Assembly: GCF_012927085.1 (NCBI RefSeq)
Contig: NZ_JABBFX010000003.1
Span: 806,001-870,000, forward strand
Length of the DNA stretch: 64,000 bases
From: Ramlibacter agri
GTDB taxonomy: Bacteria; Pseudomonadota; Gammaproteobacteria; Burkholderiales; Burkholderiaceae_C
Direction: 5' to 3'
Numbering within the stretch: the first letter of the stretch is position 1; every line of letters begins with the position of its first letter. The notes under the pieces were generated by a model. It ran no database searches and was not told where the DNA came from. It saw nothing but the letters and a program-made list of their open reading frames with translations. The translations under genes and the position numbers were made by a program. Positions 57,918 to 62,301 of this stretch are shown piece after piece.

Positions 57918-57937
57918 CCCTGTCAGCTCTGACAGGG
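57918..57937. promoter_or_regulatory. Lux-box-like palindrome upstream of the autoinducer synthase
   Basis: CCCTGTCAGCTCTGACAGGG: a 20-base dyad with 9-base perfect arms and the CTGT-N8-ACAG core of LuxR-family binding sites. It lies 61 bases before the synthase ATG. A sequence matching at 16 of 20 positions occurs at 61641–61660 by the LuxR-type gene. A 6-bp hairpin (GCAACG/CGTTGC, 57941–57957) follows it. Confidence 0.6.
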
Positions 57938-57998
57938 GTTGCAACGGCTGGCGTTGCTTTGGCAACTCCAATGGACCCTTCGAACAGAAGAGCAGTCC

Positions 57999-59237
57999 AT
58001 GGAAGTCCTCACGCGCCCCACCAGCGGTACCCCTCAAACGAAGGTCGAACCCGGCCTGTCCGCGCACCTGCGCCGGCGCATCGCCACCACTTTCCAGTCC
58101 CGCTGGGAAAACGAGTGGGGCAAGCGCTTCGTCACCCACGGCAGCGAGCCCGGCCCCAACGCCGTCCGCCTGGATGGCAACGACTACCTCTCGGTCACCG
58201 GCCACGCCGCGATCGTGCAGGCGCAGCTGGACGCCTTGCGGCGCAACCGCGATTTCATCGTGCAGTCGGGCGTGTTCCAGCTCGATGGCAGCCCCAGTTC
58301 GCGCTTCGAGGGCGCGCTGGCGGACTTCGTCGGCAAGGAAAGCGCGCTGCTGTGCCAGTCCGGCTACACCGCCAACCTGGGGCTGATCCAGGTGGTCGCG
58401 GACCCGGAGACGCCCTGTTACGTCGACAGCCTGGCCCACATGTCGCTGTGGGAAGGCGTGCGGTCGGCTGGCGCGCCGGCGGTGTCCTTCCGCCATAACG
58501 ACCCCGAGCACCTCGATCGCATGATCCGCCGCGACGGCCGGCCGGGCCTGGTGATCGTCGACTCCGTCTACAGCACCACCGGTGCGCTCTGCCCGCTGGA
58601 ACGGATCGTGGAAGTGGCGGAGCGCCACGGCTGCATGGTCCTGGTCGACGAATCGCATTCACTCGGCACGCATGGCCCCGAGGGCCGTGGCCTGTGTGCG
58701 GAGCTGGGGCTCACGCATCGCGTCCACTTCATCACGGCCAGCCTGGCCAAGGCCTTTGCCGGCCGCGCGGGCTTCTTCACGCTGCCGGACGAACTGCGGC
58801 CCTACCTCATGTGCCACAGCTATCCGAGCATCTTCAGCTCCTGCCTGCTGCCGCACGAACTGGCGGGCCTGGCGGCGACGCTGGAAGTGGTGCGCGCCAG
58901 CGACGCGGAGCGCGCGCGGCTGCGCGCCAACACGCTGCGCATGCGGCGGGCCTTGGAGGACGCGGGCTACCCCATCGCGCACGGCAGCGAGCAGATCATC
59001 GGCCTGGAAGCCGGGCCCGAGGCGGACACCTTGGCACTGCGCGATCGCATGGAGGAGCGCGGCGTGTTCGGTGCCGTGTTCTGCGCACCGGCGACCAGCC
59101 GCAACCGCTCGATGCTGCGGCTGACGCTCAATGCGTCATTGACCGACGCGGAGATGCAGCACGTGGAGTCCGTGGCGCGCGAACTGGCGCCGGTGGTGAA
59201 GCCGTGGGAGTGGGCGATCGCGCGGCGGTTGAAGTAG
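57999..59237 (+). CDS. cqsA: Alpha-hydroxyketone autoinducer synthase (CqsA/LqsA/JqsA-like)
   Basis: PLP-dependent alpha-oxoamine synthase family enzyme (412 aa). CqsA-type features: LDGNDYLSVTGH near residue 58, VQSGVFQLDGSPSSRFEGAL near 88, VDESHSLGTHGPEGRG near 213, and the Schiff-base Lys in ITASLAKAFAGRAGFF near 245. Close to the CqsA block, it differs from Kbl/BioF, which carry HK/GG motifs at the Lys. It would make a CAI-1/LAI-1-type signal from an acyl-CoA and an amino acid. The convergent two-component genes support this. The ATG is chosen after an AGAAGAG site; a TTG 60 bases upstream is possible. Confidence 0.85.
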   Translation: MEVLTRPTSGTPQTKVEPGLSAHLRRRIATTFQSRWENEWGKRFVTHGSEPGPNAVRLDGNDYLSVTGHAAIVQAQLDALRRNRDFIVQSGVFQLDGSPSSRFEGALADFVGKESALLCQSGYTANLGLIQVVADPETPCYVDSLAHMSLWEGVRSAGAPAVSFRHNDPEHLDRMIRRDGRPGLVIVDSVYSTTGALCPLERIVEVAERHGCMVLVDESHSLGTHGPEGRGLCAELGLTHRVHFITASLAKAFAGRAGFFTLPDELRPYLMCHSYPSIFSSCLLPHELAGLAATLEVVRASDAERARLRANTLRMRRALEDAGYPIAHGSEQIIGLEAGPEADTLALRDRMEERGVFGAVFCAPATSRNRSMLRLTLNASLTDAEMQHVESVARELAPVVKPWEWAIARRLK

Positions 59238-59259
59238 GGGGTGCAGCTTGCTGCGCACC

Positions 59260-60240
59260 CTACTCCTGAACGTGGCGTTTGGGCTGGCGTGACAGCCAGC
59301 GGCTGTAGCTGTTGTTCGGGTCCGGCCCGCTCGGGGCCTCCACCGGGAACAGCGCGCCGAGCAGGGCGCCGGCGCCTTCACCGACCGGGAAGCTGGGGAC
59401 CAGCGAGACCGGTTGCGACGAGGACAGCGCGGTCCGCAGCTCCATGTCGGCCAGCTTCTGGCCGCTGCGGATTTCTTCCACCGCGGCCGGCGGCACGCCC
59501 GCTGCTTCGGCCACTTCCGCCAGCGTGCGCAGGCCTTCGCGCGTTTCCAGCTGCAGCCAGCTGATCTTGCCGTTGGCGTCCATGCCCAGCACGCCGAAGG
59601 GCTCGCCGATGGCGACGTGCTCCACGAAATGCTTGGCGCAGAAGGCCGACAGCCAGTCGCCCACGCCGGGCGTGCGCAGCAGCGCGTTCTGCTCCGGCTT
59701 CAAGGTGACGCGCCAGGTCTGCGCATGGCGTGCGTGCGACGTGAACAGCAGGCGCTCGACGGCCTCGATGAGGCGGCGCGAGATGTCCGGCGTCTGCTTG
59801 GGGATGAACTGGTCGATGAGCCCGCGGTTGAAGGCCCGCACCGCCACCTGCTCGTCGGCCTGGCCGGTGAGGAGCACGCGCGCGCCGGGCCAGTCGCCGA
59901 GTTCGGCCAGTGCCTGCAGGCCGTCCATGCCAGGCATGGAGAAGTCGACCACGCACACGCGCGAGAGCATGTAGCGCTCGGTGTACTTGGACCAGTAGCC
60001 CAGGATCTGCGGGATCAGCGGCTTGCCCTCGCGCCAGTGCTCAATGAGCTGCTGCTGGTTCCAGGCGTCCGCCTCCCAGAACGGCGGCTCCTGCAGCAGG
60101 TAGGCGATGCAGTCCGCCGGCCGCAGGAACAGCTTGAGGTGCCAGTGCCGGGGCAGCACCAGGGCGAGCATCTCCAGGTAGTCCGGATCGTCGTCCAGGA
60201 ACACCACGGTGCCGGGGCGGTGGAAGAGAGGGAAGGTCAT
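59260..60240 (-). CDS. Response regulator, LqsR/JqsR-like
   Basis: A 326-aa protein with an N-terminal receiver domain: acidic pair in VVFLDDDPDYLEML (near residue 15), phosphoacceptor Asp in VCVVDFSMPGMDGLQAL (near 98), Thr in VLLTGQADE, and Lys in DQFIPKQTPD. About 35 extra residues lie between the acidic pair and the phosphoacceptor strand (around LIEHWREGKPLIPQILGYWS). The C-terminal half shows no DNA-binding HTH. It follows the kinase gene by 24 bases and is convergent with cqsA (22 bases between stops). Family link to LqsR is inferred from context and layout. Confidence 0.75.
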   Translation of the reverse strand: MTFPLFHRPGTVVFLDDDPDYLEMLALVLPRHWHLKLFLRPADCIAYLLQEPPFWEADAWNQQQLIEHWREGKPLIPQILGYWSKYTERYMLSRVCVVDFSMPGMDGLQALAELGDWPGARVLLTGQADEQVAVRAFNRGLIDQFIPKQTPDISRRLIEAVERLLFTSHARHAQTWRVTLKPEQNALLRTPGVGDWLSAFCAKHFVEHVAIGEPFGVLGMDANGKISWLQLETREGLRTLAEVAEAAGVPPAAVEEIRSGQKLADMELRTALSSSQPVSLVPSFPVGEGAGALLGALFPVEAPSGPDPNNSYSRWLSRQPKRHVQE

Positions 60241-60264
60241 GGGCGGGGCGCAGGGCTCATTGTG

Positions 60265-61590
60265 CTACGCCAGCGGTAGTTCGACCGTGAACATCGCGCC
60301 CTTGTGTGGGGCGGATTTCACGCGAATGGAGCCGCTGGCTGCCTGCACCACGCGTTGGCAGAAGGCCAGCCCCAGGCCGTGGCCGGTGCCGCGGTCCGTG
60401 GAAAAGAAGGGCTGGAAGATGTTTGCCTGCAGGTCTGCGTCCATGCCGACGCCATTGTCGGTGAAGACGATGCGCCCCCGGTTGGACTGGGCGCCGACCT
60501 CGATCAGCAGGTCGCCGGGGCGGATGGCAGTGGAGGCCGCCGCCAGCGAGCGCAGCGCATTCTTCACCAGGTTGGCGATCACCTGCTGGAACAGCGAGCG
60601 CGAGCCGCGGAAGCGGAAGTCGGAGTGCACGCGCACCACCACGCTCTCGCGCTCGCGGCTGCTGCGGAAGGGATAGTCCGCCAGCGCGTCGTGCACCAGG
60701 TCCGACGCGCCGACCAGCTCCGTGTGGATCGGCAGGCGCATCAGCCGCGCGTTGGTGATCTGCATGTCGATCTGGTGGTTCATGTTGCGCACCAGGCCGG
60801 TGAGGCGCTGCGACAGCATCTCGACCCGCGCCGCGTCCATCTCGTCGCGCGTCTCGTTGCGCAGCGCCTCGCCGATCAACTGCATGGTGGCCAGCGGCGT
60901 GCGCAGTTCGTGCGCCATGATGCCCATCGTCCCCAGCGTGTAAGTGAGCTGCTCGCGCCGCAGGTTGGACGAGGACAGGCCCAGCACGATGCCCATGAAC
61001 CAGCAGAAGGACAGCACGATCGCGTTGGTGAGGGCGAGCTCGAGCGGGATGGCGGGCGAGTCCGGGAACAGGACGTTGAACATCGCCCAGGCCACCGCCA
61101 GCGCGCTGAAGCTGCCCACGGTGGCCAGCCGCCAGTCCGTGAGGTGGTAGTAGATCAGCACCGCCGCCCCCAGGCTGGCCAGCCAGACCGCGTTGCCGCC
61201 GTTGCAGAAATACATCCACGAGAAAAACCAGGGCAGGGTGATCCAGAAGATGAGCGAGAAAGTCGCCGCGGCCAGCCGGCTGGGCGGCCGGGCAGTGATG
61301 CCCGGGATGACCAGCAGGCTCAGGCCGAAGGCCGACATCAGCAGGCGCAGCACCAGGTTCTCGTAAGGCTGGGGCAGCCATTCCGTCCAGATCAGCCAGA
61401 ACAGCGGGTGGCCCATGAGCGTCGAGATGCCCAGGGCGCGGATGCGCCAGGTCGAGGGATGCAGGATCGGCTCGACCAGCGACCGCTTGAACTCCGTGGA
61501 AACCCAGGACCGCACCCGCTGGAGGCCGGCCCGGTACAGCGCGCGGGGCGAAGCGGGAAGGGTGGGGGGCCGGCGCAAGTCCTCTCTCAT
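60265..61590 (-). CDS. Six-TM sensor histidine kinase, CqsS/LqsS-like
   Basis: Sensor kinase (441 aa from the ATG; an upstream GTG adds seven residues). Six membrane helices span about residues 45–210 and include GHPLFWLIWTEWLPQPYENL, a stretch I recognise from CqsS/LqsS-type sensors. The H-box MAHELRTPLATMQL follows (His near 225), then N-box VIANLVKNALRSL and G-boxes DNGVGMDADL and GTGHGLGLAFCQRVV. There is no attached receiver, unlike Vibrio CqsS; the separate regulator gene is next. It probably senses the ketone made by the neighbouring synthase. Confidence 0.82.
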   Translation of the reverse strand: MREDLRRPPTLPASPRALYRAGLQRVRSWVSTEFKRSLVEPILHPSTWRIRALGISTLMGHPLFWLIWTEWLPQPYENLVLRLLMSAFGLSLLVIPGITARPPSRLAAATFSLIFWITLPWFFSWMYFCNGGNAVWLASLGAAVLIYYHLTDWRLATVGSFSALAVAWAMFNVLFPDSPAIPLELALTNAIVLSFCWFMGIVLGLSSSNLRREQLTYTLGTMGIMAHELRTPLATMQLIGEALRNETRDEMDAARVEMLSQRLTGLVRNMNHQIDMQITNARLMRLPIHTELVGASDLVHDALADYPFRSSRERESVVVRVHSDFRFRGSRSLFQQVIANLVKNALRSLAAASTAIRPGDLLIEVGAQSNRGRIVFTDNGVGMDADLQANIFQPFFSTDRGTGHGLGLAFCQRVVQAASGSIRVKSAPHKGAMFTVELPLA

Positions 61591-61632
61591 CGGTATCGGT
61601 GATATTGTCACAGGCCGGCAACTGCGAGTGGT

Positions 61633-62301
61633 ATGGGGATCCCTGTTAACTTTGACAGCGTCAGCCTCGATGGCGTCCTCAGCGACTGGGTGGCTGCGCT
61701 GCGCGAATTTTCAGTCGAGGCCGTGGTCATCCTCGGCCCCGATCCCTTTGGCGGCAACGAGGACCGACAGGTGGTCGCCGTGCACCCCCCGGTGGTCGCG
61801 GAGGCCGCCAATGCGCTGGCCGAGAGCCGTGACTTCGGCGCCCGCTGGCGCGACTCCGACGCGCCCCTGGTGGCCTGGCAGACCATCGCGCGCTCCGACC
61901 CGATGCATTCCAGCCGCTGGCGGATGTTGTGGCTGGCCCACGGTTACCAGACCCTGGTGCGGGTGGAGTTCTCGCTGCCGGCCGGCCGCGCCTTCGAATG
62001 CTTCATGTTCAGCCCGCGCGAGCTGACCGACCGCGCGGACGCTGCGGCGATGGCCTGGTCGGCCCTGAACATCTGGCCGCTCGTGAAGCGCTCCATCGCC
62101 CAGGCCCGGTCCACCCTGAGCCGGCGCGAGCGCGAATGCCTGGAGCTGGCTTTCGAAGGCCTGACGGCACGCGAGAGTTCACAGCGCCTGCAGTGCAGCG
62201 AGCGCACGGTGAACTACCACATCGCCAATGCGATGAACAAGCTGAGGGTGGACAACAAGATGGCCGCGATCCAGCGCGCCTGCTTCCTCGGCGCGATTTA
62301 G
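61633..62301 (+). CDS. LuxR-family transcriptional regulator
   Basis: A 222-aa regulator. The C-terminal LuxR HTH is clear (LSRRERECLELAFEGLTARE, then CSERTVNYHIANAMNKLRVD). The N-terminal ~140 residues resemble a divergent autoinducer-binding domain: an Asp-Pro in ARSDPMHSSRWRM and HGYQTLVRVEFSLPAGRAF, but key aromatic residues cannot be confirmed. The kinase gene is divergent, 42 bases away from start to start. A lux-box-like dyad lies just inside the first codons; a GTG at 61690 is an alternative start that would leave this dyad upstream. No luxI gene is in the window. Confidence 0.8.
   Translation: MGIPVNFDSVSLDGVLSDWVAALREFSVEAVVILGPDPFGGNEDRQVVAVHPPVVAEAANALAESRDFGARWRDSDAPLVAWQTIARSDPMHSSRWRMLWLAHGYQTLVRVEFSLPAGRAFECFMFSPRELTDRADAAAMAWSALNIWPLVKRSIAQARSTLSRRERECLELAFEGLTARESSQRLQCSERTVNYHIANAMNKLRVDNKMAAIQRACFLGAI
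61641..61660. promoter_or_regulatory. Second lux-box-like dyad at the luxR-type gene
   Basis: CCCTGTTAACTTTGACAGCG, same CTGT-N8-ACAG core and 16 of 20 bases shared with the site upstream of cqsA. It begins 8 bases after the first possible luxR ATG and about 50 bases upstream of the kinase ATG on the other strand, so it could act on either gene. Less symmetric than the first site. Confidence 0.45.

Follow-up and report, generated by a model that had tools for sequence, protein, structure and literature searches.

Two quorum-sensing designs appear to be wired together at one locus of the soil bacterium Ramlibacter agri, within a 64,000-nucleotide stretch (positions 806,001 to 870,000 of contig NZ_JABBFX010000003.1) that is referred to below as the window. 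The locus is likely to be a system of the Lqs type, signalling through an alpha-hydroxyketone (AHK), in which a dedicated LuxR-type protein serves as the transcriptional arm. An earlier note on this DNA had interpreted the region as an AHK quorum-sensing locus joined to a LuxR-type regulator, and this interpretation is supported; new here are a lux-box palindrome upstream of the synthase gene, a second box inside luxR, and a further box that precedes a probable small RNA gene.

The four genes are intact and lie at the reported place; the host, described earlier as Comamonadaceae-like, belongs to the genus Ramlibacter and has a 7.2-Mb genome. The gene for a CqsA/LqsA-type AHK synthase (412 aa; 57999..59237, plus strand) faces a minus-strand operon that encodes a membrane sensor histidine kinase of up to 448 aa with about six transmembrane (TM) segments (60265..61611) and a LqsR-family response regulator (RR) of 326 aa, made up of a receiver and an LqsR-type output domain (59260..60240). 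Divergent from the kinase gene is the gene for a LuxR-type regulator (222 aa; 61633..62301, plus strand) with a predicted autoinducer/GAF-like N-terminal fold and a LuxR/GerE helix-turn-helix (HTH). This is the convergent and divergent arrangement that had been described; the interval given for it, 57918..62301, does hold the genes, but its start is the promoter region beside the lux box and not a gene start.

The synthase scores 548.9 bits against the NCBIfam model PRK07179 ('alpha-hydroxyketone-type quorum-sensing autoinducer synthase'), above the equivalog cut-off of 428, and 224.3 bits against the bioF model, the best among the BioF/Kbl/SPT-type models and below its cut-off of 426. Among PDB chains, CAI-1 autoinducer synthases rank first (322.9 bits, the next family reaching 149), and a lysine in a TASLAK context, which we take to be the pyridoxal phosphate-binding residue, is aligned with CqsA. 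The tree comprised 43 sequences, eight PF00155 loci of the genome itself having been dropped from the 51 entered for want of a 250-residue match. Here the synthase and 22 other AHK-type synthases are split 100/100 from 20 other alpha-oxoamine synthases, an outgroup treated as one set and unsorted among BioF, Kbl and SPT. The earlier claim of a CqsA-like enzyme is thereby borne out, and family membership suggests that the product is an AHK.

As a single sequence, the RR matches PDB entry 6sy9, a 361-residue chain titled 'Response regulator' that is presumably LqsR, over residues 3-263 (E 5e-19); a profile of 35 RR sequences extends the match over positions 2-298 (E 2.9e-60), across receiver and output domain. 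No other PDB match extends into the output domain, and neither the domain search nor the PDB comparison recognised a DNA-binding domain in the RR. The phospho-acceptor and the acidic pocket are kept: residues D16, D17, D99, T125 and K148 are invariant in the 35 aligned sequences, including those from loci without a kinase ortholog. In the kinase, HATPase_c lies above its Pfam cut-off and HisKA slightly below (26.2 against 26.9); we do not accept the latter score as loss of the domain, as the protein carries the motif MAHELRTPL, presumably the H-box. Overlapping hydropathy windows, read by eye, show about six hydrophobic peaks at residues 57-210. The annotated kinase start at 61611 may be too far upstream and the true start further in, because the alignment to the relative starts at residues 17-46 in 26 of 39 loci. 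By analogy with Legionella, the kinase may bind the AHK.

The LuxR-type protein has a GerE HTH (Pfam, 62.5 bits) and no Pfam match to the autoinducer-binding domain PF03472 even at E<=1. Its profile aligns with five acyl-homoserine lactone (AHL)-type LuxR proteins over residues 127-222 only; its predicted structure aligns with QscR, RhlR and TraR over the whole length. The genome itself gives no match to LuxI (PF00765), a domain that exceeds its cut-off in only some Ramlibacter genomes (10 of 60). In one genome (G014, L150) luxR is apparently fragmented, possibly through a sequencing error, and synthase, kinase and RR look intact.

The four genes travel together. Named genomes yielded 135 loci, of which 80 were kept. 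Judged by identity (60-82%), 40 of the 43 closest (L039-L081) belong to the Comamonadaceae kind, five of them under titles that are broader or odd. The synthase is accompanied by RR and kinase in 39 of these 40, and in 38 the divergent luxR is next to them, giving the same four-gene order; the exceptions are L058, with the synthase only, and L049, where the contig ends. A contig end also interrupts luxR in L040 and L043. The neighbouring secA gene adjoins the cassette in L039-L051 only and lies outside the retrieved flanks of the others; in these the cassette must therefore sit elsewhere in the genome, with luxR moving along. In loci of Polaromonas and Hydrogenophaga, LuxR is better kept than kinase and RR (in L065, for example, 63% against 52% and 48%). 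The retrieved stretches of Alcanivoracaceae, Chlorobiaceae, three other families of the same order and one genome of the same family (G214) hold no ortholog of this LuxR. That this could be an ordinary Lqs- or Jqs-type locus beside an unrelated luxR gene is suggested by the descriptions of the Legionella and Janthinobacterium loci, which in the portions available name no luxR partner; conserved linkage at different genomic places, with matching cis-sites, already contradicts this reading, and its probability is practically negligible. The coupling of LuxR and AHK system, put forward earlier from one genome, is a conserved feature and not an accident of that genome. Of the two findings that were to count against the earlier interpretation, a synthase grouping with BioF/Kbl/SPT and a kinase and synthase that do not co-occur, neither was obtained.

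Co-occurrence was also counted in 250 genomes of the family, with ortholog thresholds of E<=1e-30 for LuxR and E<=1e-80 for the synthase. LuxR is found in 28, the synthase in 24 and both in 23; by genus, 16 have both, three LuxR only, one the synthase only and 106 neither (the Fisher P values take no account of shared ancestry). The RR is present in 35, including all 28 with LuxR. Within Ramlibacter, the synthase is above cut-off in 38 of 59 genomes and LuxR has a match in 55 of 60, two of them weak (G005 and G053).

Several loci depart from the standard arrangement. Three Ramlibacter genomes (G020, L138:8400-13400; G036, L144:8570-13630; G099, L147:620-5720) keep RR and LuxR, with cqsA and its kinase replaced by another operon, which follows secA and a lux box and encodes a Haem_oxygenas_2 protein, a FeeM-type acyltransferase, a membrane hybrid kinase of HK-REC-REC-Hpt architecture and a REC-HK protein. 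The domains were searched in L138 and L147, REC-HK in L147 only, and L144 was assigned by likeness. In two further genomes (G216, L272:5673-8690; G132, L273:5106-8139) an LqsR-like RR, 35-37% identical, lies beside luxI and an AHL-type luxR, and the RR of G216 has a receiver domain no longer recognised by Pfam. A genome of another family (G065, L247:3654-8178) has cqsA divergent from a kinase-RR pair, behind which lies a luxR whose product contains an autoinducer-binding domain: here an AHL-type LuxR has joined an AHK locus independently. A metagenome-assembled genome titled Brevundimonas (L057) carries a Comamonadaceae-type four-gene cassette, probably through a binning error.

The probable cis-acting counterpart of LuxR is an exact palindrome of the form CCTGTCAN4TGACAGG upstream of the synthase gene (site 1, CCTGTCAGCTCTGACAGG, 57919..57936), which resembles the lux-box consensus of the CT-N12-AG kind. 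Downstream of it lies CCAATGG (57968..57974, plus strand), a conserved element of the TCAATGG type and putative transcription start, whose first A (57970) follows the palindrome centre by 42.5 bp. Class II LuxR activators have their sites centred at -42.5. In 41 loci where both elements are clear, this distance is 42.5 bp in 31, 41.5 in eight, and 43.5 and 46.5 in one each. The best site within 300 bp upstream of the synthase was recorded in 60 loci, two genomes being counted double (L056/L262 and L061/L263), and L040 and L049, where luxR is lost at a contig end and the site is exact, being left out of both LuxR classes. The 50 loci with LuxR show 0 mismatches in 33, one in six, two in seven, three in one and four in three; the eight without this LuxR show 5-7 at their best site, like shuffled sequence (1200 single-base shuffles gave 3 to 7 mismatches, never fewer). 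Across the 250 family genomes exact boxes are present in 19 of the 28 with LuxR (47 sites) versus 8 of the other 222 (nine sites), and the reversed pattern occurs at one place.

An inverted repeat so nearly perfect, often some 20 bp behind a stop codon, might instead be a transcription terminator or another RNA hairpin. The palindrome could indeed fold as one, and its flanks often extend the dyad, which speaks against an operator. Upstream of cqsA, though, the core keeps its sequence instead of covarying, and in the loci compared no T-tract follows directly, as it would behind an intrinsic terminator. The near-constant distance to TCAATGG or AAT, the occurrence of the palindrome with LuxR and the separate promoter-like element and T-tract of the copy described below likewise disagree with a hairpin, as do two LuxR-less genomes in which an exact site stands beside an AHL-type luxR-like gene: in G333 (L243) it lies 104 bp before a gene aligning with AHL-type LuxR, and in G247 (L238) a gene of this kind ends 83 bp ahead of it. 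We reject the hairpin as the principal explanation and regard it as very improbable.

Only two places in the 7.2-Mb genome carry the exact box; at the second (L133) it is flanked by an M16 peptidase gene and rsmD. The rsmD side was surveyed in 58 of 60 Ramlibacter genomes (G004 and G049 are missing), counting the weak 35% LuxR match of G005 as absence and keeping the 50% match of G053 separate. Among 51 LuxR-positive genomes the box is exact in 40, has 1-2 mismatches in four and is lacking in seven. The LuxR-less G005, G007, G051 and G052 have 5-6 mismatches and no exact box, and G053, with its divergent LuxR, has an exact one. The motif CTGTCAC follows the box in all 33 sequences chosen on exact box and position, and CTGTC[A/T]C in all 47 regions with 0-2 mismatches, of which 38 also have a later T run (four or more T). 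In these 38 the first A of an AAT lies 42.5 bp from the box centre in 28 and 41.5-44.5 bp in eight, two having no AAT. CTGTCAC forms the loop of a short hairpin: around it, 24 of 31 sequences pair at least three bases, compared with 16% in shuffled flanks, and 14 different stem sequences occur over the 31. These aligned sequences were picked from 33 whose selection required [G/T]CTGTCAC, and the agreement of CTGTCAC among them is therefore partly by selection.

In the aligned set the element ends in a hairpin and a T-tract. It is missing from the four LuxR-less genomes, where the M16 peptidase and rsmD genes nearly abut, and from G006, G029, G048, G044 and G040. The sequence pattern points to a probable small RNA gene, as yet unnamed: Rfam gives no match over the gathering score for the copy of this genome (best 21.6 bits against 73). 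Among 397 family genomes, the pattern of exact box, AAT and CTGTCAC turns up in six; five belong to Ramlibacter and the sixth, G218, to a different genus. The covariance model, weak with its five pairs, was not applied to searching. We do not claim a target in the cassette. The kinase leader contains the anti-seed GTGACA in the window and in six of eight other Ramlibacter loci inspected, but only six bases pair there, and other genera vary; the one longer match in the window, at 59287, falls within the RR coding sequence.

A second box is found within luxR itself. Site 2, CCTGTTAACTTTGACAGC (61642..61659), is lux-box-like with two mismatches and spans codons 4-9; at the same place, 35 loci have 1-3 mismatches in 33 and four and five in the remaining two. 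Its proline codon is CCT in 37 of 39 loci (6.7% of proline codons elsewhere in these genes), its phenylalanine codon TTT in 35 of 36 (28% elsewhere) and its serine codon AGT in 25 of 37 (8% elsewhere). This bias among synonymous codons implies that the DNA itself is under selection. Upstream of site 2, between the kinase and luxR genes, lies ATTGTCACAG (61604..61613), probably a promoter element for one direction or the other, in which ATTGTC is kept in most loci at a varying separation from site 2. The idea that site 2 is a strict -42.5 box of the kinase-RR operon was rejected, as its distance to a minus-strand CAAT is bimodal. Site 2 may serve luxR, the kinase-RR operon or both.

The RR and LuxR form the core of the locus and the synthase and kinase its variable part, because the former two persist where the synthase is gone. 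In 15 Ramlibacter LuxR loci without a synthase the RR is present in all 15 and a kinase ortholog in three, and in the five LuxR-only genomes, from three other genera, the RR is retained adjoining luxR in every case. Two further readings of LuxR bear on this. It might itself be a cytoplasmic receptor for the AHK, or for some other small molecule, working in parallel to the kinase and RR, with the RR acting elsewhere. Direct sensing is at odds with the lack of an autoinducer-binding match and the confinement of the AHL-type alignment to the C-terminal part, with the joint retention of LuxR and RR in every one of those loci, and with their retention in three genomes whose synthase operon is of quite another kind; we consider it unlikely. 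LuxR might alternatively be an independent regulator that answers to some other input and sets the levels of the synthase and other genes, the kinase and RR having no action on it. The persistence of LuxR and boxes without synthase and kinase, and the diversity of candidate targets, would suit such a regulator. The RR, however, stands in the luxR locus, adjacent or with the kinase between, in 38 cassette loci, in the 15 and the five just mentioned, and in every family genome with LuxR, and its phosphorylation residues are invariant, so that an independent LuxR seems rather improbable to us.

The reading we prefer, an Lqs-type system with LuxR as its transcriptional arm, would run as follows. 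The synthase, judged by its family, would make an AHK, which the membrane kinase would sense, setting the phosphorylation of the LqsR-like RR as in Legionella. The RR would hand this state to LuxR, most likely via protein contact, because the linkage is unbroken and the RR lacks any recognised means of reaching DNA; LuxR may in this sense read or amplify the same state as the AHK system, as had been proposed. LuxR would bind CCTGTCAN4TGACAGG, because cis-site and trans-factor co-occur at two unlinked places. At the synthase promoter it would occupy a site some 42.5 bp before the probable start, in the position of a class II activator, and might thus provide positive feedback. The box within luxR may control luxR, the divergent kinase-RR operon, or both, and further boxes may let LuxR drive the small RNA in Ramlibacter and secretion and surface genes in various genera.

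Several observations weigh against this chain. Seven of the 35 family genomes with the RR have no LuxR ortholog, and in four of these seven (G162, G256, G319 and G329) an RR 54-62% identical is accompanied by no LuxR-like match (E 0.01; 12-kb stretches). The synthase is missing with RR and LuxR kept in five of the 28 LuxR family genomes and in 15 Ramlibacter genomes; LuxR is therefore not tied to AHK production alone. Seven of the synthase-less Ramlibacter loci (L135, L136, L137, L139, L142, L143 and L146) still have an exact box between the ends of secA and the RR gene, and no gene was recognised behind it. Three LuxR-bearing loci, those with four mismatches, have no recognisable site 1, and the exact box is present in eight of the 222 family genomes without this LuxR. 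Seven of the LuxR-positive Ramlibacter genomes (G006, G027, G029, G035, which has a contig end there, G040, G044 and G048) lack the rsmD-side box, and two genomes 75-76% complete in which LuxR was not found (G010 and G019) have an exact one. Site 2 lies 42.5-44.5 bp from CAAT in 19 of 33 loci and 50.5-54.5 in 14, and six of 39 have no CAAT. Finally, weak boxes are near background: with up to two mismatches the genome has 10 places versus four for the reversed pattern, and with up to three the window has five boxes where 2.7 are expected. Weight is therefore placed on exact or nearly exact sites only.

A broader generalisation is plausible and offered tentatively, short of being probable: LqsR-family RRs may act via a partner LuxR, and RR and LuxR may be a portable output module for different synthase and sensor operons, AHK-type in most loci and heme-oxygenase-like/FeeM-type in three Ramlibacter genomes, which in Ramlibacter would place a new small RNA, its CUGUCAC loop invariant, under quorum control. 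Candidate targets other than cqsA were sought behind 52 exact sites from LuxR genomes, a part of all such sites, with gene names resting on one domain search per cluster and BLASTP clustering of the other members. Four genomes from three genera have a box before fhaC/shlB, the transporter gene of two-partner secretion (L188, L189, L226, L228), four have one before a gene for a phosphonate-binding-type protein (L191, L196, L216, L230), and two of one genus before a GH5-type glycosidase gene (L194, L197); among the single cases are a peptidase-C39 ABC transporter (L205) and, in L185, a TonB receptor. Several other exact sites lie inside or behind predicted genes, without a clear target. In G043 (L218:3001-6001) an exact box stands about 220 bp before an open reading frame that, read by eye, starts like a polyketide synthase.

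Known systems share parts of this arrangement. The following comparisons draw on portions of five articles. Legionella lqsA-lqsR-(hdeD)-lqsS likewise combines an AHK synthase, a six-TM kinase and LqsR with a matching output domain (PMC3376566, PMC5289986); no LuxR partner or lux box is described in those portions, and the gene order differs, the RR gene of Ramlibacter following the kinase gene and facing the synthase gene. In that system AHK has an inhibitory effect on the kinases, and dephosphorylation of LqsR follows (PMC5289986). The LqsR output domain is said to be without known homology, and lqsA/lqsS clusters, some with lqsR, are reported from Polaromonas (PMC3376566). Closer in taxonomy, jqsA-jqsS-jqsR of Janthinobacterium and Duganella is a three-gene AHK cluster in Burkholderiales, in Janthinobacterium with a palindromic motif upstream of jqsA and its targets; that motif, compared by description only, is TTGAN6/7TCAA, with its binding protein unnamed, and not CCTGTCAN4TGACAGG, and the luxR solos reported in some Janthinobacterium strains are not presented as jqs-linked (PMC5080296, PMC3566124). 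Vibrio cqsA-cqsS shares the synthase family and a six-TM sensor, but its cluster lacks LqsR (PMC3566124) and signals via LuxU, LuxO and HapR, which are unlinked to cqs (PMC3376566).

The AHL-type proteins QscR, RhlR and TraR resemble the Ramlibacter LuxR in overall predicted fold, GerE HTH and the kind of palindrome; the Ramlibacter protein differs in having no genomic LuxI and no autoinducer-binding sequence signature and in its linkage to an AHK synthase. PhcX of Ralstonia is similarly an LqsR-family RR that occurs apart from its synthase and is connected with a different signalling system (PMC10653808), in its case phcBSRQ; 'luxr' is absent from the text of that article. The same source, in the portion available, calls the mechanism of the LqsR family open and lqs clusters widespread, and notes that lqsR adjoins phc genes in Hydrogenophaga, Cupriavidus and Ralstonia. 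Within this partial coverage of the literature, a LuxR-type partner of an AHK locus is mentioned neither in the portions of PMC3376566, PMC10653808, PMC5080296, PMC3566124 and PMC5289986 nor in the titles and abstract openings searched.

In its best-studied form, that of Legionella, AHK signalling ends in an RR without a recognised DNA-binding domain or established output, a point described as unresolved in the parts of PMC3376566 and PMC10653808 consulted. The Ramlibacter locus offers a candidate output protein along with a putative operator, its spacing and putative targets, and thereby makes the question of LqsR output directly testable, and this in environmental bacteria that are harmless. 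One conserved locus would join two designs of quorum sensing that are usually studied apart, one built on a membrane kinase and the other on LuxR, and add to them a probable new regulatory RNA.

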